The translations under genes were made by a program, and so were the position numbers. A stretch of DNA of 64,000 nucleotides from positions 558,001 to 622,000 of the forward strand of contig NZ_LGKN01000004.1 in assembly GCF_001306175.1 (NCBI RefSeq), written 5' to 3'. This DNA comes from Ardenticatena maritima. GTDB lineage: Bacteria > Chloroflexota > Anaerolineae > Ardenticatenales > Ardenticatenaceae. Shown in pieces: positions 6,807 through 30,207 of this stretch (the stretch's first letter is position 1; every line of letters starts with the position of its first letter). The notes beneath the pieces are model-generated. The model was not told the DNA's origin. It did not search any database and saw nothing but the letters and a program-made list of their open reading frames with translations.

Positions 6807-7657
6807 CGCATCTCTTCCTCGGTGAGAGGGCGGAAGTCGCGCACGACGAAGACGTATTCAACGTTGTTGAAGTCCACCGGGGAGTCAATCATGGCTTCCT
6901 GATAGGGGTTGACGTCTTTGCGGATAACTTCACGCACCGTACCAATCACCAACCCTTTGGGGAATTGTCCACCAAGCCCCGACGTGAGGATGATATCCCC
7001 CGGCTCAACGCTTTGGTCGTTGTCAATGTAGCGCATGACAAGCCCGGTGCCGGTGCCTTCAACAATGCCGCCAGCGCGGCTCTGCTGGTCGAGCGCGGCG
7101 ACGGCGCTGGTTTCATCAATGATGAGCATGACTTCCGCCCAATGCTCGCCCACTTCCACAACGCGCCCCAACAAACCGCGCGCCGTCACTACGGGCATCC
7201 CCGGTTCAACACCATCGGCGCGCCCCTGGTTGATACGCAACGCCCGCACCAGGTTGTTGGGGTCGGTGCTCACCACACGGGCGGGCGTCTGGTTGCGTGT
7301 GACTTCGGCGACCAGGAGCAAGTAGTTGGGGTGGGCGTTCTTGAATTCGAGCAACGCCCGCAATTGGCGGTTCTCATTTTCAAGTTCGATGAGGCGCGCG
7401 TTGAGCAAAGCGAGGTCTTCCAACTGGCGGCGCAATTGCTCGTTCTCGGCTTTCAAAGTGGAAAAATGCGTCAGCGCAAAGCGCCACTCGCCCAGGAAGT
7501 CCACGCTTTCGGTGAAAAAGCCGCTGAGACCAGCCAACCAGCCTCTGCCGGTACGCTCATTCCCCCGCAGAAGACCACTGCGATCCACAAAAATCAGCAC
7601 AATGGTCACGACGAGCAAAATGAGAATCGGTGTCGATTGACGCCGCAGTTGAAACAT
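6803..7657 (-). CDS. mreC: Rod shape-determining protein MreC
   Basis: MreC links cytoplasmic MreB to the periplasmic PBP machinery. The 284 residues contain an N-terminal anchor (PILILLVVTIVLIFVD), a coiled-coil dimerisation region (FSTLKAENEQLRRQLEDLALL through about 115) and the beta-barrel domain. Family hallmarks include VVSTDPNNLVRALRINQG, GMPVVTARGLLGRV and GDIILTSGLGGQFPKGLVIG. The ATG at 7657 lies 12 bases past the mreB stop and the gene overlaps mreD by four bases. Confidence 0.95.
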   Translation of the reverse strand: MFQLRRQSTPILILLVVTIVLIFVDRSGLLRGNERTGRGWLAGLSGFFTESVDFLGEWRFALTHFSTLKAENEQLRRQLEDLALLNARLIELENENRQLRALLEFKNAHPNYLLLVAEVTRNQTPARVVSTDPNNLVRALRINQGRADGVEPGMPVVTARGLLGRVVEVGEHWAEVMLIIDETSAVAALDQQSRAGGIVEGTGTGLVMRYIDNDQSVEPGDIILTSGLGGQFPKGLVIGTVREVIRKDVNPYQEAMIDSPVDFNNVEYVFVVRDFRPLTEEEMR

Positions 7658-7669
7658 GACGCTCAGCGA

Positions 7670-8728
7670 TTAGTGCGGTGTGACTGGTCGGTGTGGTGGC
7701 GCTTGCACCTGTTTCAGCAAATCGGGGCGCTCCAGGGCGTGCGCACACCCACGCACCACACAGCTCAGCGGGTCGTCAGCCACATAGACGCGCATGCGCG
7801 TTTCATCCGTCAAGCGTTGCGCCAGCCCTTTCAACAACGCCCCACCGCCGGCAAGCGCAATCCCGTTTTCCATCAGGTCGGCAACCAATTCGGGCGGGGT
7901 CTGGTCAATGGCGGCGCGCGTTGCTTCGACAATGGCGCCCACCGGCCCGCTGATGGCTTCGCGAATTTCGATGCTCGTCACCGTGACGGCTTCGGGCAGC
8001 CCTGTAATCAAGTTGCGCCCGCGGATTTCCATCGTCATTTCGTCTTCAAGCGGGTAGGCGGAGCCAATTTGCACCTTGACACGTTCCGCCATGCGTGGGC
8101 CAATGAGCAAGTTGTAGCGTTGGCGGGCGTAGTCAATAATAGCCTCGTCCAACTCATCGCCTGCAATACGAATGGAATTGTTGACCACAATGCCCCCCAT
8201 GGAGATGACGGCAATCTCGGTCGTTCCGCCGCCAATGTCCACAACCATGCTCCCCACGCTTTCGGTCACCGGCAAGCCTGCGCCGATAGCAGCCGCCATC
8301 GGCTGTTCAATGAGATGCACCTCACGCGCCCCCGCGCTGAGAGCCGCGTCACGCACGGCGATACGTTCCACTTCCGTGACGCCCCCCGGAATACCAATGA
8401 CGATGCGGGGTGAAACCGGCAAAATCGTGCGCTCATGCACCTTTTTGATGAACTCCGAAATCATGGCGTGGGTGACATCGAAGTCGGAGATAACGCCGTC
8501 GCGCAAGGGGCGCACAGCCACAATGTGCGCGGGCGTCCGCCCCACCATCTCTTTGGCGTCGGCGCCAACGGCAAGCACGCGCCCGTTGCGTTTATCAACC
8601 GCCACTACGGACGGCTCGTTGATGACAATTCCCTGCCCACGCACAGCCACCACCGTGTTGGCTGTGCCCAAGTCCATCGCAATATCGCGCGAAAACAGAC
8701 CAAACAGTTTACTCAGTGGGCTAATCAC
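7670..8728 (-). CDS. mreB: Rod shape-determining actin homologue MreB
   Basis: MreB forms membrane-associated filaments that orient side-wall synthesis. The 352-residue product has the actin-fold nucleotide motifs: MDLGTANTVVAVRG (phosphate 1), VVDIGGGTTEIAV (phosphate 2) and ALAGGGALLKGL (adenosine). IAVRDAALSAGAREVHLIEQ is typical of MreB. Translation begins at a GTG (8728) preceded by GAGGAG at good spacing. It is the first gene of the shape cluster, with its own promoter inside the rplY terminator region. The final 15 or so residues are proline- and histidine-rich. Confidence 0.97.
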   Translation of the reverse strand: MISPLSKLFGLFSRDIAMDLGTANTVVAVRGQGIVINEPSVVAVDKRNGRVLAVGADAKEMVGRTPAHIVAVRPLRDGVISDFDVTHAMISEFIKKVHERTILPVSPRIVIGIPGGVTEVERIAVRDAALSAGAREVHLIEQPMAAAIGAGLPVTESVGSMVVDIGGGTTEIAVISMGGIVVNNSIRIAGDELDEAIIDYARQRYNLLIGPRMAERVKVQIGSAYPLEDEMTMEIRGRNLITGLPEAVTVTSIEIREAISGPVGAIVEATRAAIDQTPPELVADLMENGIALAGGGALLKGLAQRLTDETRMRVYVADDPLSCVVRGCAHALERPDLLKQVQAPPHRPVTPH

Positions 8729-8739
8729 GATTCGCTCCT

Positions 8740-8755
8740 CATCTGTTTACAGATG
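8740..8755. repeat. Inverted repeat around the mreB transcription start
   Basis: CATCTGT-TT-ACAGATG (7-bp arms) lies between the predicted -10 box and the GAGGAG ribosome site of mreB. It could be an operator or a small 5' hairpin affecting the ribosome site. Confidence 0.4.
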
Positions 8756-8761
8756 GCTTAC

Positions 8762-8789
8762 ATTCTAGGCATTTCCATAACACAAGCAA
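8762..8789 (-). promoter_or_regulatory. Sigma-70-type promoter of the mreB cluster
   Basis: On the minus strand TTGCTT (8789-8784), a 16-base spacer and TAGAAT (8767-8762) precede mreB. The -35 box lies in the T-rich tail of the rplY terminator. Confidence 0.6.
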
Positions 8790-8811
8790 AGCCCGGCCAT
8801 AGCGACCGGGC
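8784..8811 (-). terminator. Intrinsic terminator of rplY
   Basis: Reading the minus strand, GCCCGG (8811-8806) and CCGGGC (8796-8791) with a 9-base loop are followed by TTTGCTTGTGTT. The T-run is interrupted, so termination may be partial and allow some read-through into mreB. Confidence 0.6.
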
Positions 8812-8839
8812 TTCGGTATTGCGAGAAAAGCGGGAAACT

Positions 8840-9493
8840 CTATTCTTCCTCTTCTTCGCGCTCGCCAATGACTTCGACGTCGCCCGCGGCGGCTGGCGCT
8901 TCGGTGCTTTCGGCTTCCACGGCTTCTTCGGCGCGCAACGGTTCCAGCACGGCAACCGCAATGTCGCCTTCGGTAATGATTTCGACGCCTTCGGGAACCG
9001 GCAAGTCCGCCACCGTCAACACATCGCCCACTTCTTTGAGCAAGTCAGTGACGTCCACTTCAATTTCCGAGGGCAAATGCGCCGGCAGGGCTTCGACCTC
9101 AATTTCTTCCAGCACCTGGCTCACCAGGGCGATATTCTGCGCCACCGGTGCGGGCTCACCCGTCAGGTGGATCGGCACTTCGATGCGCACCGGCTCATCC
9201 ATGCGCACCGCCAAAAAATCAACGTGCAACAGCGTTTGGCGCACAGGATCACGCTGCACATCACGCACCAGCACATTCACAGGACGCGAGCGACCTTCAA
9301 TGCGCAAATCAATCAAGTGCGAGACGCCGGCTTGTTGCAACACCTTGCGCAATTCGCGAGCGTCCACCTGCACAGAAATGGGTTCTTCCAACGCAGCGCC
9401 ATACACAACGCCGGGGATGAACCCTTCGCGGCGCAACTGTTTGACCTTCTTTCCAAGCACCGTGCGGGGTGCGGCTTTCAGTTCAATTCCCAT
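8840..9493 (-). CDS. rplY: 50S ribosomal protein L25 (TL5/CTC type)
   Basis: L25/TL5 binds 5S rRNA on the large subunit. The 217 residues show the N-terminal 5S-binding domain (MGIELKAAPRTVLGKKVKQL, PGVVYGAALEEPISV, VNVLVRDVQRDPVRQTLLHVDFLAV) and the C-terminal beta domain (EVEALPAHLPSEIEVDVTDL). An acidic Glu-rich tail ends the protein. This is the long CTC form rather than the short E. coli form. It is a single-gene unit with its own promoter and terminator. Confidence 0.96.
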   Translation of the reverse strand: MGIELKAAPRTVLGKKVKQLRREGFIPGVVYGAALEEPISVQVDARELRKVLQQAGVSHLIDLRIEGRSRPVNVLVRDVQRDPVRQTLLHVDFLAVRMDEPVRIEVPIHLTGEPAPVAQNIALVSQVLEEIEVEALPAHLPSEIEVDVTDLLKEVGDVLTVADLPVPEGVEIITEGDIAVAVLEPLRAEEAVEAESTEAPAAAGDVEVIGEREEEEE

Positions 9494-9563
9494 AACGCTA
9501 CCCTCTTCCTTGCTTCTTGCACCAGCAAGCGCCGATGCGTCATCTGCATGTGTTCATAAGGAA

Positions 9564-9581
9564 TGGGCGCAGAAGCGCCCA
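9564..9581. repeat. Hairpin in the rplY 5' leader
   Basis: TGGGCGC-AGAA-GCGCCCA forms a perfect 7-bp stem with a 4-base loop near the start of the predicted rplY transcript, about 70 bases upstream of the ATG. A role in L25 autoregulation is possible but unproven. The rest of the 253-base gap up to 9746 holds the rplY promoter and, on the plus strand, a weak TTGTCT (9695) / TAGAAT (9716) pair upstream of the next gene. Confidence 0.4.
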
Positions 9582-9594
9582 CAGTCGGCGTGCC

Positions 9595-9622
9595 ATTGTA
9601 CAGAAAAGCACAAAAAGGTCAA
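9595..9622 (-). promoter_or_regulatory. Sigma-70-type promoter of rplY
   Basis: On the minus strand TTGACC (9622-9617), a 16-base spacer and TACAAT (9600-9595) are close to consensus. The transcript leader is about 95 bases. Confidence 0.75.
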
Positions 9623-9746
9623 ACGTCTTGAAAGAAAAGGCGTTTTGCCGGAAAATGGCAAGCGGATAACGCATTTTGTAAAACTTCCTTCGGTTGTCTC
9701 CGTATTTTGCTCCGTAGAATTCACGCACCAAAAGGAGGTGAACGCC

Positions 9747-10670
9747 ATGCGCCGTTCGACGCTTGTTCAACCCACACCATCCATGCCATCGGAAGTACCG
9801 AACCTGCCCCCAGCGTACCGTCGCACCGCTTTCGTCAAGCCCGCCATGTCCCATCTCTTGCTCGCCGGCACACTTGCGTTTCCTGTCTGGTTGCTCATCT
9901 TTCACACCATCAGCACTTTTCTGACAGGCAATACGTTTTCACTCACCCTTCATTTCACCCCCGCTGGCCTCTCGGATTGGCTTCGTCTCCTCTTCGGTTT
10001 TTTCGTTGCCGGTCCGCTTCTCATTGTTCTGCACGAAGGTTGCCACGGGCTTTTGTTTCGCCTCAACGGCTTTCAACCACGTTATGGGTTTCGCTGGTTG
10101 TACGCCTATGCCACAGCCCCCAATGCGCTCATGACACGTCGTCAGGCGCTCAGTGTGACCCTCGCCCCCTTGGTACTGCTTACCCTGATGGGCCTGCTCC
10201 TCCTCCCATTCGCCCCCACAGCGGTTGTGCCTTACATTATTCTCTTTCTCACGGCAAATGCGGCTGGTGCGATAGGGGACTTGTGGTTGAGTGTCGTCCT
10301 TTTGCGGCTTCCAGACGAGGTGCGTATTGTGGATCAGGCTGACCAGTGGGAGGTGTATGCCCCCGTTGATAGCGACGTTCCCGTCACGACGATCACGAGC
10401 GGATTTGTTTTGCGCTGGTTCGGCATGACCGCACTGGTTTTTCTCATCATCACCGTTCTACTTAATTTTTTACCGCTCCTTGCGGTTCAATTGGATATGG
10501 ACGCGCTCCGCATTGGCCCCGCCGGCATATGGTATCTGATTGAATTTGAACGAACGCCAGATGGCGGCTTCCAAACGTCGCTTGGTTTGCCCGCCACATT
10601 GGTCGTCAGTATTGTGTTGGGTGGGGGGCTAGCGGTGCTTCTTCCTCAGCGACCCGCAGAGACAACTTGA
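9747..10670 (+). CDS. Membrane DUF3267-like putative metallopeptidase
   Basis: The 307-residue protein has about six membrane segments. A zinc-type HEGCH motif at residues 96-100 lies in the second hydrophobic region (LLIVLHEGCHGLLFRLNG). A second conserved-looking element, LTANAAGAIGDLWLSVVLL, could supply the third ligand. This layout matches DUF3267 putative intramembrane zinc proteases (site-2-protease-like); the activity and substrate are unknown. The ATG at 9747 follows AAAGGAGGTG. An upstream in-frame extension is antisense to rplY and is not real. The gene stands alone. Confidence 0.7.
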   Translation: MRRSTLVQPTPSMPSEVPNLPPAYRRTAFVKPAMSHLLLAGTLAFPVWLLIFHTISTFLTGNTFSLTLHFTPAGLSDWLRLLFGFFVAGPLLIVLHEGCHGLLFRLNGFQPRYGFRWLYAYATAPNALMTRRQALSVTLAPLVLLTLMGLLLLPFAPTAVVPYIILFLTANAAGAIGDLWLSVVLLRLPDEVRIVDQADQWEVYAPVDSDVPVTTITSGFVLRWFGMTALVFLIITVLLNFLPLLAVQLDMDALRIGPAGIWYLIEFERTPDGGFQTSLGLPATLVVSIVLGGGLAVLLPQRPAETT

Positions 10671-21457: not shown

Positions 21458-22096
21458 ATGATTGCTTTTATTCTCTTTGGTACGCGTGGGGTAACAACAA
21501 CAAAAGCCTCCGGGGATTTTTTCTGTCCCGCATGTGAAAGCCGACAACCATACAAACATCAAATAGTCCGGCGCTATTTCACACTCTACTTCATTCCGCT
21601 CTTACCGCTTGAAACATTAGGGGAATACATTGAATGTCAGACATGCAAAGGCACATACAAACTCAATGTTCTCAATTATGATCCCGATCAAGCCGCAAAG
21701 CGTTTTTGGCAAAAATTCCAACAGGTCACGCGCGATGTCCTGTTCTTGATGGCTCGTACAAACGATCGTATCTATTTGGAACAAATCCGAACCATTTGCG
21801 CGTTCTCTGAACATGCCCTCGGACTTTCTTCTACACCACAAGAAACCCAGCGCGAAATTCTTGCAATGGAGACAAGCCCACGCGCTGTTGTTGACGCACT
21901 CACTGAGATTGCAACAGACCTTAATGACAAAGGCAAAGAACTCATTCTCAGAGGAGCATTTCTGGTTGCATTAGCCGATGGTGACTTGAGTGAAGAAGAA
22001 ATGAAATTTATTACGGCTATTGGGCTTGCACTTCAAATGTCCCAATACCATGTTCGTGCTGTCCTCGACGAGGTTATTGAAAAGTTGAATGAATGA
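21458..22096 (+). CDS. Zinc-ribbon/TerB-like protein, first gene of the cmr operon
   Basis: The 212-residue protein begins with a zinc ribbon (Cys23/Cys26 in FFCPACES and Cys60/Cys63 in IECQTCKG) separated by a hydrophobic strand (RYFTLYFIPLLPLETLGEYI). The C-terminal third (about 150-210) resembles TerB-type helical domains, with GAFLVALADGDLSEEEMKFI as the acidic metal-site-like motif. TerB-like domains occur in stress and phage-defence settings. Only 18 bases separate it from cmr2 and both share orientation, so co-transcription is likely. Base composition is visibly AT-richer than the flanking genes, which suggests transfer. Function is not known. Confidence 0.6.
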   Translation: MIAFILFGTRGVTTTKASGDFFCPACESRQPYKHQIVRRYFTLYFIPLLPLETLGEYIECQTCKGTYKLNVLNYDPDQAAKRFWQKFQQVTRDVLFLMARTNDRIYLEQIRTICAFSEHALGLSSTPQETQREILAMETSPRAVVDALTEIATDLNDKGKELILRGAFLVALADGDLSEEEMKFITAIGLALQMSQYHVRAVLDEVIEKLNE

Positions 22097-22114: not shown

Positions 22115-23830
22115 ATGAGCACCAAATACCTCTTCATCTGTTCCATCGGTCCCGTGCAAGACTTCATCGCCGCCGCCCGCAGTAGCCGCGACCTCACCTA
22201 CGGGTCGCACTTGCTGAGCGAATTAGCCAAGACGGCCGCACGCACCATTGCTGACAAAGAGAGCTTCGACGCACTCATCTTTCCAGCGCCAAAGAGCAAA
22301 AAAGACCTTGATGAAAATAGCGCTCTCTCGGTCGCCAACAAGGTGGTGGCGGTGGTGTCAGGCGAACCGCAGGGCTTGGCGGACACTATCGAAGAGGCGC
22401 TGCGTGCATTCATCCTAAACGCCTGGCACCCCATCGAAGACAAGTTGCAAAACGACGTGGATAAAGCACTGGCACGCTGGCAACTCAAAGACCTGCTCGA
22501 ATTCTACTGGGTGGCGGCGCCACTTGAGGGGAAGTACGAAGAGGTGCGCGCTACGTGCGAAGCCGCCCTCAGTGCCCGCAAAGCCACGCGCGATTTCCGG
22601 CGGTACACGGGCAAACCGCGCTTCAAGTCGTCTATTGACGGCTGGCGCGAGCATGTGCTGGAGCAACTCCCCAACACGGCTTCCAGCCCGACCGACAAGC
22701 AGATGAAGCGCTACAAGATGCGCAATGGGGAACTGCTTTCAGGGGTGGACCTGCTGAAGCGCTGGGGCGGGTTGGAACTCAGTGCTACGTACAAGAGCAC
22801 AGGGCACATGGCGGCATTGCCGTTCGCCGAAGGACTGGCGCAAAACGGCGTCAATGTCCATGAGTTGTATCAAGCCCTCGAGGACCTCATAACTGACAAT
22901 GATGGCAACCTTTTTGCGAAAGACGACTACAGCGTCTTCTTCCCGGCAGAAGTGCGCGCCGCATTCGATGACAAAGAGAAGGCCAAAACTGTTTTAGAGA
23001 AACATGAACGCCTGCTGAGCCAGTATGCGGGCACACGCCGCCCATCGCCATACTACGCCCTCCTCCTGGCCGACGGTGACTCTATGGGCAAGGCGATTGA
23101 CGCCCAAACATCGCCGGCAGCGCACCGCGCGCTTTCGCAAAAGTTGAGCGAATTTGCGCAGGAAGTCCCCAAGATTGTGAGACAGTACCGCGGCGTGCCC
23201 GTGTATGCCGGCGGCGACGACATCCTGGCCTATCTGCCACTTCACACGGCGCTGGAATGCGTGCGTGAATTAGCCGAAACGTTCCAAGAGATGATGAGCG
23301 CATTCACATTCGATGAGAATGGTCAGCAGAAATCGCCCACGCTCTCAGCCGGTTTGGTGATCACACACCACCTGGAACCGCTGCGCGATGCGCTGGCGCT
23401 CGTGCGGGCGGCTGAAAAAAGCGCCAAGACCGTTGCGGGCAAAAATGCGCTCGCCATCACGCTCAACAAACGCAGCGGCGCCGACCGCACGGTGAAAGGC
23501 AACCTGTTTGCATTGATCGAACGCCTGCAAACGATGCGAGGATGGTGGTTGAATGAGACGTTGAGCAAGGGCACCGCCTATGAACTGGAACGACTGGCGC
23601 GTGATATGGAAGGCGTTCTGCCTGCTGAGGCGCTTGCCGCCGAAGCTGTGCGCATTTTGAAACGTAAGCGAGAATCAGGCGGGAAAGAAAAGGTCAAGCA
23701 AGAGGTGATTGACCAAATCGAAAACTGGCTGAAGAAGGAGCAAATCAAATTGCACGAACTGGCGCAAGAGATGATTGTCGCCAACGAATTGGCGCGAGCC
23801 AGCAAACAGGCGCAAGGAAAGGAGGCGTGA
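22115..23830 (+). CDS. cmr2: Type III-B CRISPR Cas10 subunit Cmr2, HD domain absent
   Basis: Cmr2 is the large subunit of the type III-B RNA-targeting complex and makes cyclic oligoadenylates on target binding. The 571 residues start directly with the first palm motif (GPVQDFIAAARSSRDLTYGS, near 12-31). They contain LLLADGDSMGKAID near 317-329 and the second-palm cyclase motif YAGGDDILAYLP, with GGDD at 366-369. No N-terminal HD nuclease domain precedes palm 1, so target-activated DNA cleavage is not expected. The cysteines of the usual zinc finger are not seen either. It begins the core of the operon; its stop overlaps cmr3. Confidence 0.92.
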   Translation: MSTKYLFICSIGPVQDFIAAARSSRDLTYGSHLLSELAKTAARTIADKESFDALIFPAPKSKKDLDENSALSVANKVVAVVSGEPQGLADTIEEALRAFILNAWHPIEDKLQNDVDKALARWQLKDLLEFYWVAAPLEGKYEEVRATCEAALSARKATRDFRRYTGKPRFKSSIDGWREHVLEQLPNTASSPTDKQMKRYKMRNGELLSGVDLLKRWGGLELSATYKSTGHMAALPFAEGLAQNGVNVHELYQALEDLITDNDGNLFAKDDYSVFFPAEVRAAFDDKEKAKTVLEKHERLLSQYAGTRRPSPYYALLLADGDSMGKAIDAQTSPAAHRALSQKLSEFAQEVPKIVRQYRGVPVYAGGDDILAYLPLHTALECVRELAETFQEMMSAFTFDENGQQKSPTLSAGLVITHHLEPLRDALALVRAAEKSAKTVAGKNALAITLNKRSGADRTVKGNLFALIERLQTMRGWWLNETLSKGTAYELERLARDMEGVLPAEALAAEAVRILKRKRESGGKEKVKQEVIDQIENWLKKEQIKLHELAQEMIVANELARASKQAQGKEA

Positions 23831-25005
23831 TGAGCAACAGCATGAAGACATGGCGGGTGGTTCCCCACGACCCGCTCATCTTCCGAGACGGCAAACCGTT
23901 CACGGCAACGCCGGGCGCACGCGCAACGTCCGTGCCCTTCCCGTTTCCCTCCACATTGGCCGGGGCGGTGCGCACATTGAGCGGAGCACTGGAAAATGGT
24001 GGTATTTTCCCAAAGAAAAACAACGACGCGCTTGTCCAAAAGGTGCTGGCGTATCCGGTGGCGGGGCCCTTTCTCTTCGACACACGACGGCAACAGGTGC
24101 TCTTCCCCGCCCCGCAAGACGCCCTGTTGGTCAAACTTGAACCGCACGACGAAACCAAGGCGCAACAAGTACCCTTGCACCCCACAACGCGCTTCTCGAA
24201 TGTGCTAACAAACATGCCGGATGGCTTGCAATTGGTTGCGCCGGTTGAAACCGTCAAGGCCAAGCGCCATCCCAACGCGCCTGCCTTTTGGTACTGGGAG
24301 AAGATCGAAGCATGGTTGAAGCACCCGACGCCGGCAACGGTCACGTTGAGCGCTCTTGGCATTCACACCCTGCCAACGGATTACCGCACGCACGTGAGCA
24401 TTCAGCACCAAAGCGGCACCGCAGAAGAGGGCGCGCTCTTCCAGACGGCGGGGCTCACTTTCGTGCATGCGCCGCGCAAGGAGAAACGCCCCGACTTGGA
24501 TGAAGCCGCCGAGTTAGCGCTCCTGCTGCAAACAGACGCGCCGATTGGGGCCACCATGTGGACACTGGGCGGGGAGCGCCGCCTCGCCGCGTGGGAAGAG
24601 CAGAACGATACATTGCCCACGTGCCCGGAGGAGGTGCAAACCGCCATTCAGCAGAGACGGCGGGGGCGGCTCATTCTGGCAACACCGGCGCATTTCACGG
24701 GCGGTTTTCTGCCCACGTGGGTGTGCGAACATCCAAGCGGGGTGAAACTGCGCATTGTGGGGGCAGCCGTGGGGCGGCCGGTGCATGTGTCAGGCTGGGA
24801 TTACCAGAAAGGCAAACCCAAAATTACGCGCCGCCTGGCGCCCGCCGGAAGTGTCTATTTCTTCGAGATTGTCGAGGGGGATGAAGCAGCCATCACGCAA
24901 TTCATCAATGCCGTCTGGCTGCGCCCTATCAGTGATGAAGAGCAAGATCGCCGCGACGGCTTTGGCGTTGCCCTGCTGGGCACGTGGAACGAGAAGGAGG
25001 CATGA
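23830..25005 (+). CDS. cmr3: Type III-B CRISPR subunit Cmr3 (Cas5 family)
   Basis: Cmr3 caps the crRNA 5' end in the Cmr complex. The 391-residue protein begins with the family signature VVPHDPLIFRDGKPF, then PFPFPSTLAGAVRTLSG, a typical Cas5-type RAMP start. Later come FQTAGLTFVHAPR and the glycine-rich VGRPVHVSGWDYQKGKPK, characteristic of Cmr3 C-termini. The ATG at 23830 overlaps the cmr2 stop (TGATG), with AAAGGAGGC upstream. Length agrees with the family. Confidence 0.9.
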   Translation: MSNSMKTWRVVPHDPLIFRDGKPFTATPGARATSVPFPFPSTLAGAVRTLSGALENGGIFPKKNNDALVQKVLAYPVAGPFLFDTRRQQVLFPAPQDALLVKLEPHDETKAQQVPLHPTTRFSNVLTNMPDGLQLVAPVETVKAKRHPNAPAFWYWEKIEAWLKHPTPATVTLSALGIHTLPTDYRTHVSIQHQSGTAEEGALFQTAGLTFVHAPRKEKRPDLDEAAELALLLQTDAPIGATMWTLGGERRLAAWEEQNDTLPTCPEEVQTAIQQRRRGRLILATPAHFTGGFLPTWVCEHPSGVKLRIVGAAVGRPVHVSGWDYQKGKPKITRRLAPAGSVYFFEIVEGDEAAITQFINAVWLRPISDEEQDRRDGFGVALLGTWNEKEA

Positions 25006-25006
25006 G

Positions 25007-26317
25007 ATGCTGAGCAACCGCAAACCACCAGCGTTTTCACCACCTGGGGTTCACCCCAAAGATGGCCGAATCACACAGGTGCGCACATACAAACTCATCA
25101 CCCCGCTGTACGGCGGTGGGGCTGAAACGCAAAAACCCGACGAAGTGACTGTGGTGCGCGCCAGTGAAATTCGCGGGCTGCTGCGCTTCTGGTGGCGCGC
25201 TACTCGCGGCGGGCAGTTCGACGGATCGCTGGCCAAAATGCGCGCTGCCGAGGAGGCTATTTGGGGCTCGGCCGCCGGAGAGAGCAAGGCGGGGCCGTCG
25301 CCGGTGGCGCTGGCTGTGCGTATTCTCAAACGTGGGCAGAAAATGGAAGATGTTTCCATACGAACACGGAGAGGCAACCAGCGCGTCAACATTGGCGACC
25401 CTCGATCTCCTTACGGATATGTTGCGTTTCCATTGCGCGACAGCCGAGGAAGTGTCTGGAAAGACGTTGAATTTGAGTTGCACATCACCATCAATCGCAC
25501 CAATGTTCAAGGCGGCGGTAAAACGCTCAATGTGCAAGAAGAGGTCGAAGCCGCGCTCTGGGCGTGGGAGACATTTGGCGGCGTGGGCGCTCGTACGCGC
25601 CGCGGGTTTGGGGCGTTGCAGTTGACCAAAATTGATGGTCAATCTGTCCATGAACCCACAGCCAAAGAAGTCGAATCATATGTACGGAATGGGTTGCACA
25701 AATATGTGCGTGGCACGCAATGGCCCTGCGGTGTTGCCCATCTTACATCTGACATGATGTGGAAAATTACCAATCGCCACAACGATGCAGACGCAGCATG
25801 GCAGTATTTGTTCAAAAGCCTCAAGGATTTTCGTCAGGCACGCTATCCAGACAGCAAAAACCGCCCATTTGGCCGCAGTAAATGGCCAGAACCAGACGCC
25901 ATTCGGCGGATTACAGGCACTTCTTCGCCAGGGCATGCGCCCCAGCATCCAGTTCGAGATAAGTTTCCACGCGGTCAATTTGGGCTTCCAATCATCTTTC
26001 AGTTCAAGGAAGATGATGAGAAAAACGGCGACCCACCCAAAACGGTACTTGAAGGCGCACAACACGACCGTTTCGCCAGCCGACTGATTCTACGTCCCCT
26101 CGCCTGCCAAGGTGGAGCCGTCGGCTTGGCTTGTGTACTGGAAGGACCCAAAGACCCGCCCGGCGGGTATGTATTGAAACAACAAAGCAATGGGCAAGTC
26201 CTTGCGCGGCCGAATGTTGACCTGACGAGGCAAGACGCACTGAAAATTGGACCACTCAACGGCGAACCCGATGTTCTGAAAGCCTTTCTGAAAACCCTTG
26301 GATGGAAAGAGGAGTGA
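25007..26317 (+). CDS. cmr1: Type III-B CRISPR subunit Cmr1 (Cas7-like RAMP)
   Basis: Cmr1 sits at the crRNA 3' end of the complex and assists target recognition. The 436 residues contain KLITPLYGGGAETQKPDEVT and VVRASEIRGLLRFWWRATRG, the diagnostic Cmr1 start, and the glycine-rich loop WAWETFGGVGARTRRGFGAL. The C-terminal half (AWQYLFKSLKDFRQARYP, RFASRLILRPLACQ) completes a tandem RAMP layout. The ATG at 25007 lies one base after the cmr3 stop. Confidence 0.92.
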   Translation: MLSNRKPPAFSPPGVHPKDGRITQVRTYKLITPLYGGGAETQKPDEVTVVRASEIRGLLRFWWRATRGGQFDGSLAKMRAAEEAIWGSAAGESKAGPSPVALAVRILKRGQKMEDVSIRTRRGNQRVNIGDPRSPYGYVAFPLRDSRGSVWKDVEFELHITINRTNVQGGGKTLNVQEEVEAALWAWETFGGVGARTRRGFGALQLTKIDGQSVHEPTAKEVESYVRNGLHKYVRGTQWPCGVAHLTSDMMWKITNRHNDADAAWQYLFKSLKDFRQARYPDSKNRPFGRSKWPEPDAIRRITGTSSPGHAPQHPVRDKFPRGQFGLPIIFQFKEDDEKNGDPPKTVLEGAQHDRFASRLILRPLACQGGAVGLACVLEGPKDPPGGYVLKQQSNGQVLARPNVDLTRQDALKIGPLNGEPDVLKAFLKTLGWKEE

Positions 26318-26321
26318 AATC

Positions 26322-27173
26322 ATGCAAGCCAAACTGATCTTCTTACACGCGTTGTCCCCCTTGCACGCCGGCACCGGCCAGGGCGTTGGTGCCATTGACC
26401 TGCCCATCGCCCGCGAAAAAGGCACTGAAATCCCCATCGTACCCGGTTCCAGCCTGAAAGGTGTGCTGCGCGATGCTTGTCAGGCGCTCCACGGCAATGG
26501 CACCTGCACGCGCATTTTCGGTCCCGACACGGACAACGCCTCTGCGCACGCCGGCGCCGTCATCCTCACCGACTTGCGCCTGGTGGCTCTGCCGGTCCGC
26601 TCGCTGGCGGGCGTCTTCGCCTGGGTGAGTTCGCCCTTTCTGTTGCAACGCCTGGCCCGTGACGCGCAGATGGCGGGCTTAAGCGATGCCCCCAAAGAGC
26701 CGTCGGTGGCAAATGCTCAAACCGTGCTGGTCAGCAGCACCAGCACCATCCAGGTCAACAATGCTGAGGTGGTGCTGGAAGATGTGAAGTTGAATGCGCA
26801 AACGCAAGCCGATACGTGGGCGAATTGGCTTGCGCCCAAGGTCTTCGCTGACGAAGGCTGGCAAGCCAGCTTCAAAGCCCGCTTTGCCATCGTCCACGAC
26901 GATGTGATGGCCTACCTGCTCCAAGTCGCAACCGACGTCACGGCCCGCATCCGTCTGGAAGATGACACGAAGACGGTTGCTCAAGGTGCGCTCTGGTACG
27001 AAGAAGCCTTGCCCGCCGAGAGCATTCTGGCCGGGTTGGTGGCTGCGCAGCCGAATGGAGAAGCCCAACCCGATGAAGTGTTCGAGAAGGTGAGCGAACT
27101 CGCCCAGCATCCGCTGCAAGTGGGCGGCAACGCCACCGTGGGACGCGGCCTGTGCCGCTTGAGCCTTGCGTAG
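26322..27173 (+). CDS. cmr4: Type III-B CRISPR subunit Cmr4 (Cas7 backbone, target RNase)
   Basis: Cmr4 forms the backbone along the crRNA and cuts target RNA every six nucleotides. The 283 residues open with LHALSPLHAGTGQGVGAIDL. The aspartate at residue 26 sits at the same position as the catalytic Asp26 described for Pyrococcus Cmr4. IPIVPGSSLKGVLRDAC is the standard RAMP motif, and the C-terminus has PLQVGGNATVGRGLCRL, the glycine-rich loop. The ATG at 26322 follows AAGAGGAGTG. Intact active-site geometry predicts RNA cleavage. Confidence 0.94.
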   Translation: MQAKLIFLHALSPLHAGTGQGVGAIDLPIAREKGTEIPIVPGSSLKGVLRDACQALHGNGTCTRIFGPDTDNASAHAGAVILTDLRLVALPVRSLAGVFAWVSSPFLLQRLARDAQMAGLSDAPKEPSVANAQTVLVSSTSTIQVNNAEVVLEDVKLNAQTQADTWANWLAPKVFADEGWQASFKARFAIVHDDVMAYLLQVATDVTARIRLEDDTKTVAQGALWYEEALPAESILAGLVAAQPNGEAQPDEVFEKVSELAQHPLQVGGNATVGRGLCRLSLA

Positions 27174-27183
27174 GAGGGACACC

Positions 27184-27555
27184 ATGCGCACATTGGAACA
27201 AGAATTGGCCGCAACCATTTACGAGCAAGTATCACGTCTGCAAACCGACGAAGAACGCGCTAAGGAGTATGGTGGCATGGCGCATAAACTGCCGGTGCTC
27301 ATCCGCCAGGCGGGGCTGGTACAGGCGCTGGCCTATGTGGCGGCGCGGGGCAAACCGGGCGCCAAGCAACTGTTGGAAGACCTCGCGGCGGCGCTTGGAG
27401 AGGATTCAACAGACGATTTGTTGCAGCGATCACGCGAAGACAACCTGCTCGAATACATGCGTCTGACGCGCGAAGCCACCATCGCGCTCACCTGGTACAA
27501 GCGCTTCGCCCAATCGGTGCTGGGTGTGGAGTCGACAGAGGAGGTTCGAGAATGA
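27184..27555 (+). CDS. cmr5: Type III-B CRISPR small subunit Cmr5 (Cas11)
   Basis: Cmr5 is the small alpha-helical subunit that forms the belly filament of the complex and contacts target RNA. The 123 residues are predicted all-helical, with GGMAHKLPVLIRQAGLVQAL AYVAARG as the family hallmark and TREATIALTWYKRFAQSVLG at the C-terminus. The ATG at 27184 follows GGAGGGACACC. The stop overlaps cmr6 by four bases. Confidence 0.88.
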   Translation: MRTLEQELAATIYEQVSRLQTDEERAKEYGGMAHKLPVLIRQAGLVQALAYVAARGKPGAKQLLEDLAAALGEDSTDDLLQRSREDNLLEYMRLTREATIALTWYKRFAQSVLGVESTEEVRE

Positions 27556-28637
27556 GCATCTCTGAACGAAGCTTCTTTTTTGCACGGCGTCAGACCCTCG
27601 CAAACGTCCAATTGAATCAAGCACGCTTCCCACATGCAGGTCTCTGGCTGGATAAATTCTTGCCCAAGCAGTTCGCACAAGGTAAATCAGAGGGGGAAGG
27701 CGCTTACCGCGATCACTTTGAACAAGCCGTCAAAATTCCTGTCGCGGACGTTTACACCTCCGCCTTCAACCGCTGGAAGCATACACTCGAAGCAAGCGGC
27801 ATCAAAACCAAGGTGGCAACCACGCAAGGGCGGCTCGTGGTCGGCTTGGGGGCGGAGAGCGTGCTCGAAAACGCCATCACCCTGCACCGCACCTACGGCG
27901 TACCTGTCATTCCAGGCAGTGCGCTCAAGGGGCTTGCCGCAGCGTATGCCCGCAACCGCCTGGCTGAGCCGGCTTGGCAGAAGGGCGGCGAAGCGTACAA
28001 AACCCTTTTCGGCGACACCGAGTCGGCCGGCTACGTCACCTTTTTCGACGCGCTGTATGTGCCTGATAGCGTCAAAGATAACCGCCCCCTCGCGTTGGAT
28101 GTCGTGACCGTTCACCACCAAGAGTACTACCGGGGCGAGAAGAGCCCACCAGCCGACTGGGACAGCCCCAACCCGGTGCCCTTTGTCAGCGTACGCGCCG
28201 GGGTGAAGTTCCTGGTGGCGCTTGCCGGGCCGGAAGAATGGGTCGAAGCCGCGTTCCAGATTTTGGGGCTGGCGCTGGCCGAGGAAGGCATTGGCGCGAA
28301 GACCAACAGCGGCTATGGGCGGATGGTGCTGGAAGGGTATGCGAAAGGGGTAGCGAAAACAGCAGAGCCACGCGAAACATATCACCTGGCAAAATTGCGC
28401 CTTCTCAAACAAGAAACACCCCCCCCTGGACGATCTCGTGGCGAAGTTGTCGAAGTACGTGGCCGATATGGGTTTATCAATCCCGCTCAAGGTGGCGGCA
28501 AAATCTTTGTCCACGTAAGTCAACTTCAATCAGGGGCTACATCCTTGCAAGTTGGCCAAGTGGTTGAATACAGCTTAGGAAAATATAAAGGTCAAACACA
28601 AGCCCAGAAAGTTGATGTGTTGTTAGAACCAGATTGA
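27552..28637 (+). CDS. cmr6: Type III-B CRISPR subunit Cmr6 fused to a cold-shock domain
   Basis: Cmr6 is the terminal Cas7-like subunit. Residues 1 to about 280 have the RAMP features GVPVIPGSALKGLAAAYARN, LFGDTESAGYVTFFDALY, LDVVTVHHQEYYRGE and the loop GIGAKTNSGYGRMVLEG. After a short linker, residues 297-358 match a cold-shock/OB fold: GEVVEVRGRYGFINP (RNP1-like GRYGFI at 304-309), GGGKIFVHVSQL (RNP2-like IFVHVS at 318-323) and LQVGQVVEYSLGKYKGQTQA. Cold-shock domains bind single-stranded nucleic acid, so the tail may add RNA binding at the crRNA 3' end. The reading frame is continuous, without a stop between the parts. It overlaps cmr5. Confidence 0.88.
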   Translation: MSISERSFFFARRQTLANVQLNQARFPHAGLWLDKFLPKQFAQGKSEGEGAYRDHFEQAVKIPVADVYTSAFNRWKHTLEASGIKTKVATTQGRLVVGLGAESVLENAITLHRTYGVPVIPGSALKGLAAAYARNRLAEPAWQKGGEAYKTLFGDTESAGYVTFFDALYVPDSVKDNRPLALDVVTVHHQEYYRGEKSPPADWDSPNPVPFVSVRAGVKFLVALAGPEEWVEAAFQILGLALAEEGIGAKTNSGYGRMVLEGYAKGVAKTAEPRETYHLAKLRLLKQETPPPGRSRGEVVEVRGRYGFINPAQGGGKIFVHVSQLQSGATSLQVGQVVEYSLGKYKGQTQAQKVDVLLEPD

Positions 28638-28663
28638 TACAAGATGAAAAAGAGGAGGTTGCG

Positions 28664-29815
28664 ATGAACAATCAATCTAAACTGATTGTTTCACCTGTAG
28701 GCATCAGTCTGCTTTTGAACTATGCATCGCAAATTCGCCAAGATGGTAATCTGAGAAAGCAATTCCTGGATTGCAGTAACGAGAAAAATTTGCCACAGGA
28801 ATTAGCAGGTCAGGTAGAAGAATTGTCTGAGGAAATTTTAACTTACCTCATTGACGCAAATGTCGAGACGCGTCGAAAACTAAGTGCAGAGCTGAATGGC
28901 TTATATGGTTTGTTTCCCAACGGTCAGTTTTCCAAATCCGATACGCATATCCTCATTGCGACCGATACCGAGTTAGGGCAAACGACTGCCCGGATTCTGG
29001 AAGAATTTTTGCGTGAGCATGGTGTACAAAACATTCAAATCATTTGCCCGTCAGGTTTGCAAACAAAAGACGAAGTACAGTTCCGAAGGGCTATCCGAGA
29101 ATTGTTCGCCGACTTAGAAAGTATTTTACCTGAATATAAAAACAAGGTGTACCAGATTACTTTCAATCTGACGGGAGGTTTCAAAAGCCTGTATAGCTAT
29201 CTCAGCATTGTGGGGATGTTTTATGGCGATAAAATCGTGTACATTTTTGAAAACGGAAAATTGCTTTCCATTCCCAGGCTCCCACTAAGAATTGACGATT
29301 CGCAACTACGCCAACCAGAACAAGCCGTACAACTTGCCTTGCTAGCGGCAGGGCACATCTACCGCCGAAGCGACATTCAATTGCCAGGAGCGCTTTGGGA
29401 AGAAGATGAAAAGGGAGACGTGACGATCTCGGAATGGGGGCAACTGATTTGGGACCAGGTGAAAAACGACATCCTTTCCAAGGGTTTACTTCCATTTCCT
29501 TACTTAGAATATGAGAGCACTTTTCGGAAAGATTTTGAAAAGGCCACGCCAGAACAACGAATCCGTCTGCAAGAAACATTGGCAAAGGTCAGCAAAATAC
29601 TCCTTGAACACCAAGGAAATATAAAAGCACTCAAGGAACACGGAGGACTTCAGTATGACAATTATACAAATAAATCACTTCCAGATGGTACTCCTATTGG
29701 CCATTTCCGAATCAATGAAGGTGACCGAGTGACATGCATCGCTGTTGGTGGTAAATTGTATTTACGTCATTTTGGTTCTCATGATTATACCGAAAGTAAA
29801 GAGGGAGTTCGATGA
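28664..29815 (+). CDS. CARF-RelE fusion: cyclic-oligoadenylate-activated toxin (Cami1-like)
   Basis: The 383-residue protein starts with a CARF domain of the APE2256/Csm6 type: [12 protein letters not shown] (8-19), [17 protein letters not shown] (96-112) and [16 protein letters not shown] (167-182). The middle is helical. Residues from about 285 to 376 look like a RelE/HigB-type RNase: [20 protein letters not shown], then [18 protein letters not shown] and [15 protein letters not shown]. The characterised CARF-RelE protein Cami1 is a ribosome-dependent mRNase switched on by cOA, so a similar role is inferred here. The ATG at 28664 follows AGAGGAGG. It is AT-richer than the cmr genes and overlaps csx15 by four bases. 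Confidence 0.78.
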
Positions 29816-30207
29816 TTGTTCTTAACTTTTCTCACCCCATCACAGATGAGCAAAAGTCACAAATCGAGGCGCTTACCGGCCAATCTGTTGAGCGCATCGT
29901 TGCGATTAACAGTCAGATTGATACCGAACAACCTTTAGCCCCCCAAATCGTTGCTATGGCCGACGCATGTGGGCTGTCACAAGAAGAATGGCAAACCCTG
30001 CCTCTCCTCATCAACCCACCCGCCCTCAATTTCAGCGCCGTGGCGTTGCTGGCCGAACTGCACGGCCGCATGGGCTACTTCCCCCCCGTCCTGCGGCTCA
30101 AGCCCGTTCTGGGGCCCGACGGCCAGCGTGTCGTCCCCCCTCGCTTCGCCGTTGCAGAAATCCTCAACCTCCAAGCCATCCGCGACGAAGCGCGCGCACG
30201 GCGCTGA
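29812..30207 (+). CDS. csx15: CRISPR-associated protein Csx15
   Basis: The 131 residues begin with [20 protein letters not shown] and contain [20 protein letters not shown] and [20 protein letters not shown], the pattern of Csx15 proteins found beside type III loci. Csx15-like proteins have been proposed to bind or degrade cyclic oligoadenylates, which would damp the signal; no catalytic residue can be assigned from sequence. Start and stop overlap as ATGA with the CARF-RelE gene, so the two are co-translated as an effector-modulator pair. The first half is AT-rich like its neighbour and the second half GC-rich like the genome. Confidence 0.7.

Follow-up and report, generated by a model that had tools for sequence, protein, structure and literature searches.

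A C-terminal cold-shock domain on Cmr6 of a type III-B CRISPR system in Ardenticatena maritima, and exchange of Cmr6 tails in Chloroflexota

Within the type III-B complex, Cmr6 is located at the crRNA 3' end (PMC8376896). In the T. thermophilus Cmr complex, the seed for target binding is the exposed crRNA 3' end near Cmr1 and Cmr6, and this seed is needed for target binding (PMC8376896). Csm5, the III-A counterpart of Cmr6, affects target affinity and has a divergent capping domain that contacts the target RNA (PMC10289348). The described type III-B Cmr6 proteins (TIGR01898; A. fulgidus, 3x1l/9l7c; P. furiosus, 4w8v; T. thermophilus) share RAMP core, operon and fold with the protein reported here, and the T. 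thermophilus protein shares 49% identity with it over residues 10-261. In contrast to our protein, no cold-shock domain (CSD) was found in the A. fulgidus, P. furiosus and T. thermophilus proteins: the matches reported for them stop at about residue 262 of the window protein, and the C-terminal tail of about 95 residues on T. thermophilus Cmr6 is unrelated.

One deposited structure does hold Cmr6 and a CSD in one chain. PDB 9arw_H, named 'CSD domain-containing protein Cmr6', is a chain of a solved III-B complex (also 9z7q, 9z7v and 9z7x); unlike the order described below, its CSD precedes the RAMP core and lies at the N-terminus (residues about 15-66). Because 9arw_H already holds a CSD on Cmr6, the bare fusion is present in databases (PDB, UniProt-style name) and is not new to them. 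In the open-access literature, we found no paper on the 9arw CSD-Cmr6 and none describing a Cmr6-CSD or Csm5-CSD fusion; the C-terminal order, its recurrence in III-A and III-B systems and the exchange of cassettes appear undescribed in the literature searched. Cold-shock-like OB folds also occur in CoCoNuT Type I CnuB, which are predicted RNA-targeting defence proteins (PMC11090510), but these are McrB-type GTPases with an N-terminal fusion and belong to unrelated machinery.

The DNA analysed here (the window) is a stretch of 64,000 nucleotides from A. maritima. It contains a type III-B operon with the following genes and gene parts in order:

22115-23830, plus strand, Cas10/Cmr2 (TIGR02577, 216.5 bits; PF22335 and PF12469)
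23827-25005, plus strand, Cmr3 (PF09700, 270.1 bits)
24998-26317, plus strand, Cmr1 (TIGR01894, 59.5 bits, cut-off 28.65)
26298-27173, plus strand, Cmr4, the Cas7 backbone (TIGR02580, 253.2 bits)
27166-27555, plus strand, Cmr5 (Cas11) (PF09701, 92.2 bits)
27552-28637, plus strand, cmr6-CSD fusion, a single frame of 361 amino acids with an ATG start and its stop within the range
27552-28331, plus strand, Cmr6 RAMP core of the fusion, residues 1-260 (TIGR01898, 161.8 bits at residues 90-258)
28332-28421, plus strand, linker of the fusion, residues 261-290, with a short helix at 277-286 ('ETYHLAKLRLL')
28422-28625, plus strand, C-terminal CSD of the fusion, residues 291-358 (PF00313, 48.3 bits at residues 303-355, E 9.5e-13)
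28634-29815, plus strand, CARF7-RelE-type ancillary effector (PADLOC CARF7--CARF_RelE, 388.6 bits; PF09651, 109.7 bits)
29812-30207, plus strand, Csx15 (NF040560, 173.8 bits, cut-off 35)

Pfam reports no HD domain in the window Cas10, and no CRISPR array was detected within the 64 kb. Elsewhere, the genome encodes Cas1 and Cas6, with two arrays close to Cas1 genes, as well as stand-alone cold-shock proteins (L002). Directly upstream of Cas10 lies a low-GC gene with a GC3 of 0.40 (21458-22096), which is also found upstream of Cas10 in a second Ardenticatena genome (L003/G425).

The first-pass annotation had described a single-frame Cmr6 with a C-terminal CSD at 27552-28637, and the profile searches bear this out. 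The protein scores well above the Cmr6 equivalog cut-off of TIGR01898 (161.8 bits versus 51.1, NCBIfam), its residues 90-258 match the Pfam RAMPs family (63.3 bits, cut-off 22.1), and the CSD exceeds the PF00313 gathering cut-off (48.3 bits versus 27, Pfam). Both quoted motifs, the RNP1-like GRYGFI and the RNP2-like IFVHVS, are present in the tail. In the AF2 model, the core fold is closest to solved Cmr6 (VIA: 9l7c_I, Z 19.1 over 250 residues; 3x1l_H, Z 18.8), while 9arw is absent among the fold matches listed for the model.

A steep fall in GC3 at the join, from 0.70 in the Cmr6 core to 0.32 in the CSD, is what might be expected if a frameshift, an assembly join or a pseudogene had joined cmr6 to an adjacent cold-shock gene, a sequencing frameshift being a possibility that the earlier annotation had itself named. 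We consider the chance of such an artefact to be negligible: because the fusion also reads as a single frame in the second Ardenticatena genome, where the gene is 77% identical, a sequencing frameshift is excluded, and independent genomes with further fusions together with purifying selection on the domain dispose of the other forms.

More specifically, the CSD of the two Ardenticatena genomes is 90% identical at the amino acid level with a pN of 0.065 despite a pS of 0.91, that is near-saturated synonymous change, which indicates strong purifying selection on the domain. The Cmr6 core is 78% identical (pN 0.136, dN/dS 0.094), so the CSD is conserved more strictly than the core to which it is attached.

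The tail is confidently predicted to form a five-stranded OB barrel. The AF2 model, a kind of check that the first-pass annotation had proposed for residues 285-361, places strands at residues 295-303, 306-311, 318-321, 337-345 and 348-358 with a pLDDT of about 88-95 across residues 291-358, and the linker is weakly predicted at residues 261-276 (pLDDT about 64 at residues 261-280). Searched alone with phmmer, the tail matches solved cold-shock domains (best E 4e-11), the best ones being domains of Unr/CSDE1. Fold and RNP1/RNP2 motifs are those of bacterial cold-shock proteins and CSDE1/Unr; the window domain differs from cold-shock proteins in being fused to a CRISPR subunit and in its contact residues. 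Four of the seven classical aromatic or histidine RNA-contact positions are kept (Tyr/Phe, Phe, Phe, His; alignment A3), and equivalents of CspB W8, F30 and F38 are missing by our own mapping on that alignment. With three of seven positions lost, binding is expected to be weak and tethered, below the affinity of a stand-alone cold-shock protein, and it is probably the tethering that would make such weak binding useful.

Genome searches covered Chloroflexota; one scan was made across a species collection. Further Cmr6 proteins with a C-terminal CSD were found in an Anaerolineales genome (L006, 42.3 bits), in G444 (L090, 52.2 bits) and in G609 (L095/L123, 32.9 bits). The Cmr6 of G569 (L092) has a degenerate CSD tail that falls under the Pfam reporting limit and scores 25.1 bits (E 3.8e-6) with a profile that was not trained on it. 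In Chloroflexota, at least four lineages of Cmr6 thus carry CSD tails, and the one-off fusion implied by the first-pass annotation turns out to be a recurrent one. The RNP1/RNP2 core YGFI...FVH is retained in the window, L003 and L090, and L006 and L095 differ at one RNP1 position. The core of L090 belongs to a different clade from that of the window; linker and CSD are common to both, and the L090 linker, GETYELARLRLLRREAPPPGRYRG, resembles that of the window. At the L006 locus, a frame of 215 amino acids follows cmr6 (6914-7558), reverse-transcriptase-like and Cas1-like ORFs were seen by eye at 8408-10410, and a CRISPR array lies at about 11014.

The remark in the first-pass annotation that no standard Cmr6 with this tail was known needs qualification: a CSD-bearing Cmr6 is deposited (9arw_H), and what stands is that its CSD is at the other terminus. 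The two domains show weak similarity (15.8 bits). The plasmid Cmr6 proteins closest to the 9arw Cmr6 are from Bacteroidota, with no CSD by profile, and plasmid matches to the window protein all end at or before residue 262, none with a CSD tail. A viral origin was considered and rejected, as no relatives turned up among viral contigs or phage records.

A second type of tail, found on seven Cmr6 proteins (e.g., L112, L105 and L101), is modelled as a CSD fold that has lost its RNA-binding aromatics. Its AF2 model (pLDDT 91.2) has cold-shock domains as top PDB matches (YBX2, 7f3l; CspA, 2l15) at a TM of about 0.8, and all seven proteins lack the RNP1 aromatics and the RNP2 histidine. No Pfam match was found in the member tested (L040). 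A profile-profile comparison with CSDs gives a weak match (probability 14%); the assignment is therefore based on the match of the structure models.

Tails are common on Cmr6 in general. Among 92 distinct Cmr6 cores, 55 carry a tail of at least 75 residues, of several unlike kinds, and 37 are tail-free. Apart from the CSD and the divergent type that was modelled, tails were assigned to classes by eye. Only about 20 of the 30 tails in the helical class fit the helical-tail profile well; the class also takes in looser matches, which were grouped by their length and general look. On a tree of the 92 cores, the kind of tail changes 29 times, where the minimum is 8 and the shuffled mean 46.4. The CSD label needs four changes, each forced by well-supported (starred) branches, support being that of a quick search and gain and loss being indistinguishable in direction.

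The helical tail, of about 70 residues with conserved Trp residues, forms the Cmr6 C-terminus of L004, L007, L030, L034, L039, L047, L098 and others (alignment A5). It has no convincing Pfam or PDB match and may merit a family of its own. Another tail, beta-rich and S1/OB-like by eye, occurs in L046, L067, L051 and L055 ('FAGEV...IPPEVAIGVI...ARVEIV').

The clearest case of exchange comes from two genomes of one genus, G569 and G501. Their DNA is 94.0% identical over 3742 bases, stopping within cmr6 at the codons for GYGRVK, the end of the RAMP core. Past this breakpoint, the degenerate CSD tail of G569 and the helical tail of G501 are unrelated, as is the spacer that follows; identity resumes, at 95.6%, near the start of the next gene and continues for 158 bases until the contig ends. 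The replaced segments are:

L121, 5256-5842 in reverse complement, replaced Cmr6 tail of G569 (degenerate CSD)
L120, 3734-4136, replaced Cmr6 tail of G501 (helical)

Because DNA of about 94-96% identity flanks the replaced tail on both sides, we conclude that the Cmr6 tail is a swappable cassette.

A matching step in composition separates core and CSD in the window, where the drop in GC3 (-0.34) is the largest among the 55 tails. Many Cmr6 tails of any kind lie below their core (mean -0.078, control 0.014); since low GC3 is common across tail kinds, the drop was rejected as proof of transfer and is only supportive of it. The downstream CARF7-RelE effector gene (28634-29815) also has a low GC3 (0.41), and joint acquisition with the adjacent CSD is possible.

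These exchanges bear on whether the CSD acts through RNA at all. The tail might instead be a surface for protein docking or for evading anti-CRISPR proteins, swapped in an arms race, in which the CSD would be used for its shape. The interchange of several unrelated folds on near-identical cores would fit this explanation, as would the seven proteins that keep the fold without the RNP1 aromatics and histidine and the low GC3 shared by the CSD and the CARF-RelE gene. We nonetheless hold it to be unlikely, given that the RNP1/RNP2 residues are retained in the fusions nearest to the window and that, unlike an arms-race surface, the CSD is conserved beyond the core between the two Ardenticatena genomes.

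The CSD is also found on other type III RAMP proteins. In G640 (L119/L170), a Csm5 with a C-terminal CSD (TIGR01899, 98.4 bits; CSD, 63.6 bits) closes a complete csm1-csm5 operon, and two TIGR03986 RAMPs carry the domain:

L170, 5510-7081, Csm5-CSD of G640
L118, 2791-5079, minus strand, TIGR03986 RAMP with C-terminal CSD of G650
L155, 1492-3855, minus strand, TIGR03986 RAMP with C-terminal CSD of G134

As in the window, the domain is a C-terminal plug-in on a type III RAMP; unlike in the window, the subunits and type III subtypes are others and the linkers are not alike. Because Csm5 takes the place of Cmr6 at this end of the III-A complex, the same domain is found on the 3' cap in two subtypes. 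This recurrence on Cmr6 and Csm5, together with the linker common to two lineages, argues for a role within the complex. It leaves very little probability for a CSD that works outside the effector, for instance by chaperoning RNA or by acting on the mRNA of its own operon, and whose attachment to Cmr6 serves expression alone, although stand-alone cold-shock proteins act in this way and the A. maritima genome encodes them.

As the first-pass annotation suggested, the CSD would most likely bind either the tail of the crRNA or the target RNA, an idea that fits both the exposed 3' seed of T. thermophilus and the CSD tails on Csm5. We put at an even chance the more specific proposal that it is a tethered RNA-binding or chaperone module which, placed at the crRNA 3' (seed) end, would aid capture or unfolding of the target RNA. 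By homology, Cmr6 would be the Cas7-like subunit at the crRNA 3' end, from which the CSD would hang on its flexible linker and could bind single-stranded RNA weakly close by. Target pairing would start at this end, where the target RNA would enter by its 5' side, and the CSD could concentrate target RNA locally or melt its structure by RNA-chaperone action, leading to faster seed pairing. As a plug-in part, it could be replaced by other tail types.

The same position fits equally well with a role on the guide: the CSD might bind the protruding crRNA tail, limit or steer its trimming by host nucleases, and so set the length of the complex instead of capturing targets. Host nucleases trim the crRNA 3' end, where Cmr6 and Csm5 are found (PMC10289348, PMC8376896), and Csm5 recruits PNPase and RNase R (PMC10289348). 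Against this, many Cmr6 and Csm5 proteins are tail-free; crRNA binding and target binding are not separable from sequence, and overall we judge this role to be improbable.

Target capture, which we favour, has points against it as well. Most Cmr6 proteins examined do without a CSD, and the domain is also on TIGR03986 proteins, which these data do not place at the 3' end. Furthermore, since CSD-type (degenerate) and helical tails interchange within one genus, the role of the tail may not be RNA binding as such, and the swap speaks against all tails having a role in RNA binding or handling. Somewhat tentatively, the 3' cap formed by Cmr6 in III-B and Csm5 in III-A might be a hypervariable docking point for swapped tail cassettes, of which the CSD version would be a built-in RNA chaperone that speeds the capture of structured targets by the seed.

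With a natural complex that carries a tethered CSD, the way in which type III complexes locate their target RNA and open it at the crRNA 3' seed becomes directly testable, and near-isogenic natural complexes differing in their Cmr6 tail also allow a direct test. Should the tail prove to speed target capture, type III RNA-detection tools such as SCOPE (PMC8376896) would gain a ready-made module. The tail swap reveals an exchangeable site in Cmr6 that is not described in the literature searched.

Other cold-shock proteins were noted in the course of the searches. Large or tandem cold-shock-domain proteins with no obvious CRISPR link are encoded at L169 395-3253 (G044), L168 1435-2637 (G295) and L173 984-1613 (G034). 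Two Chloroflexota loci (L124 and L125) encode small proteins that combine a putative zinc ribbon with a cold-shock domain and are apparently not CRISPR-related.
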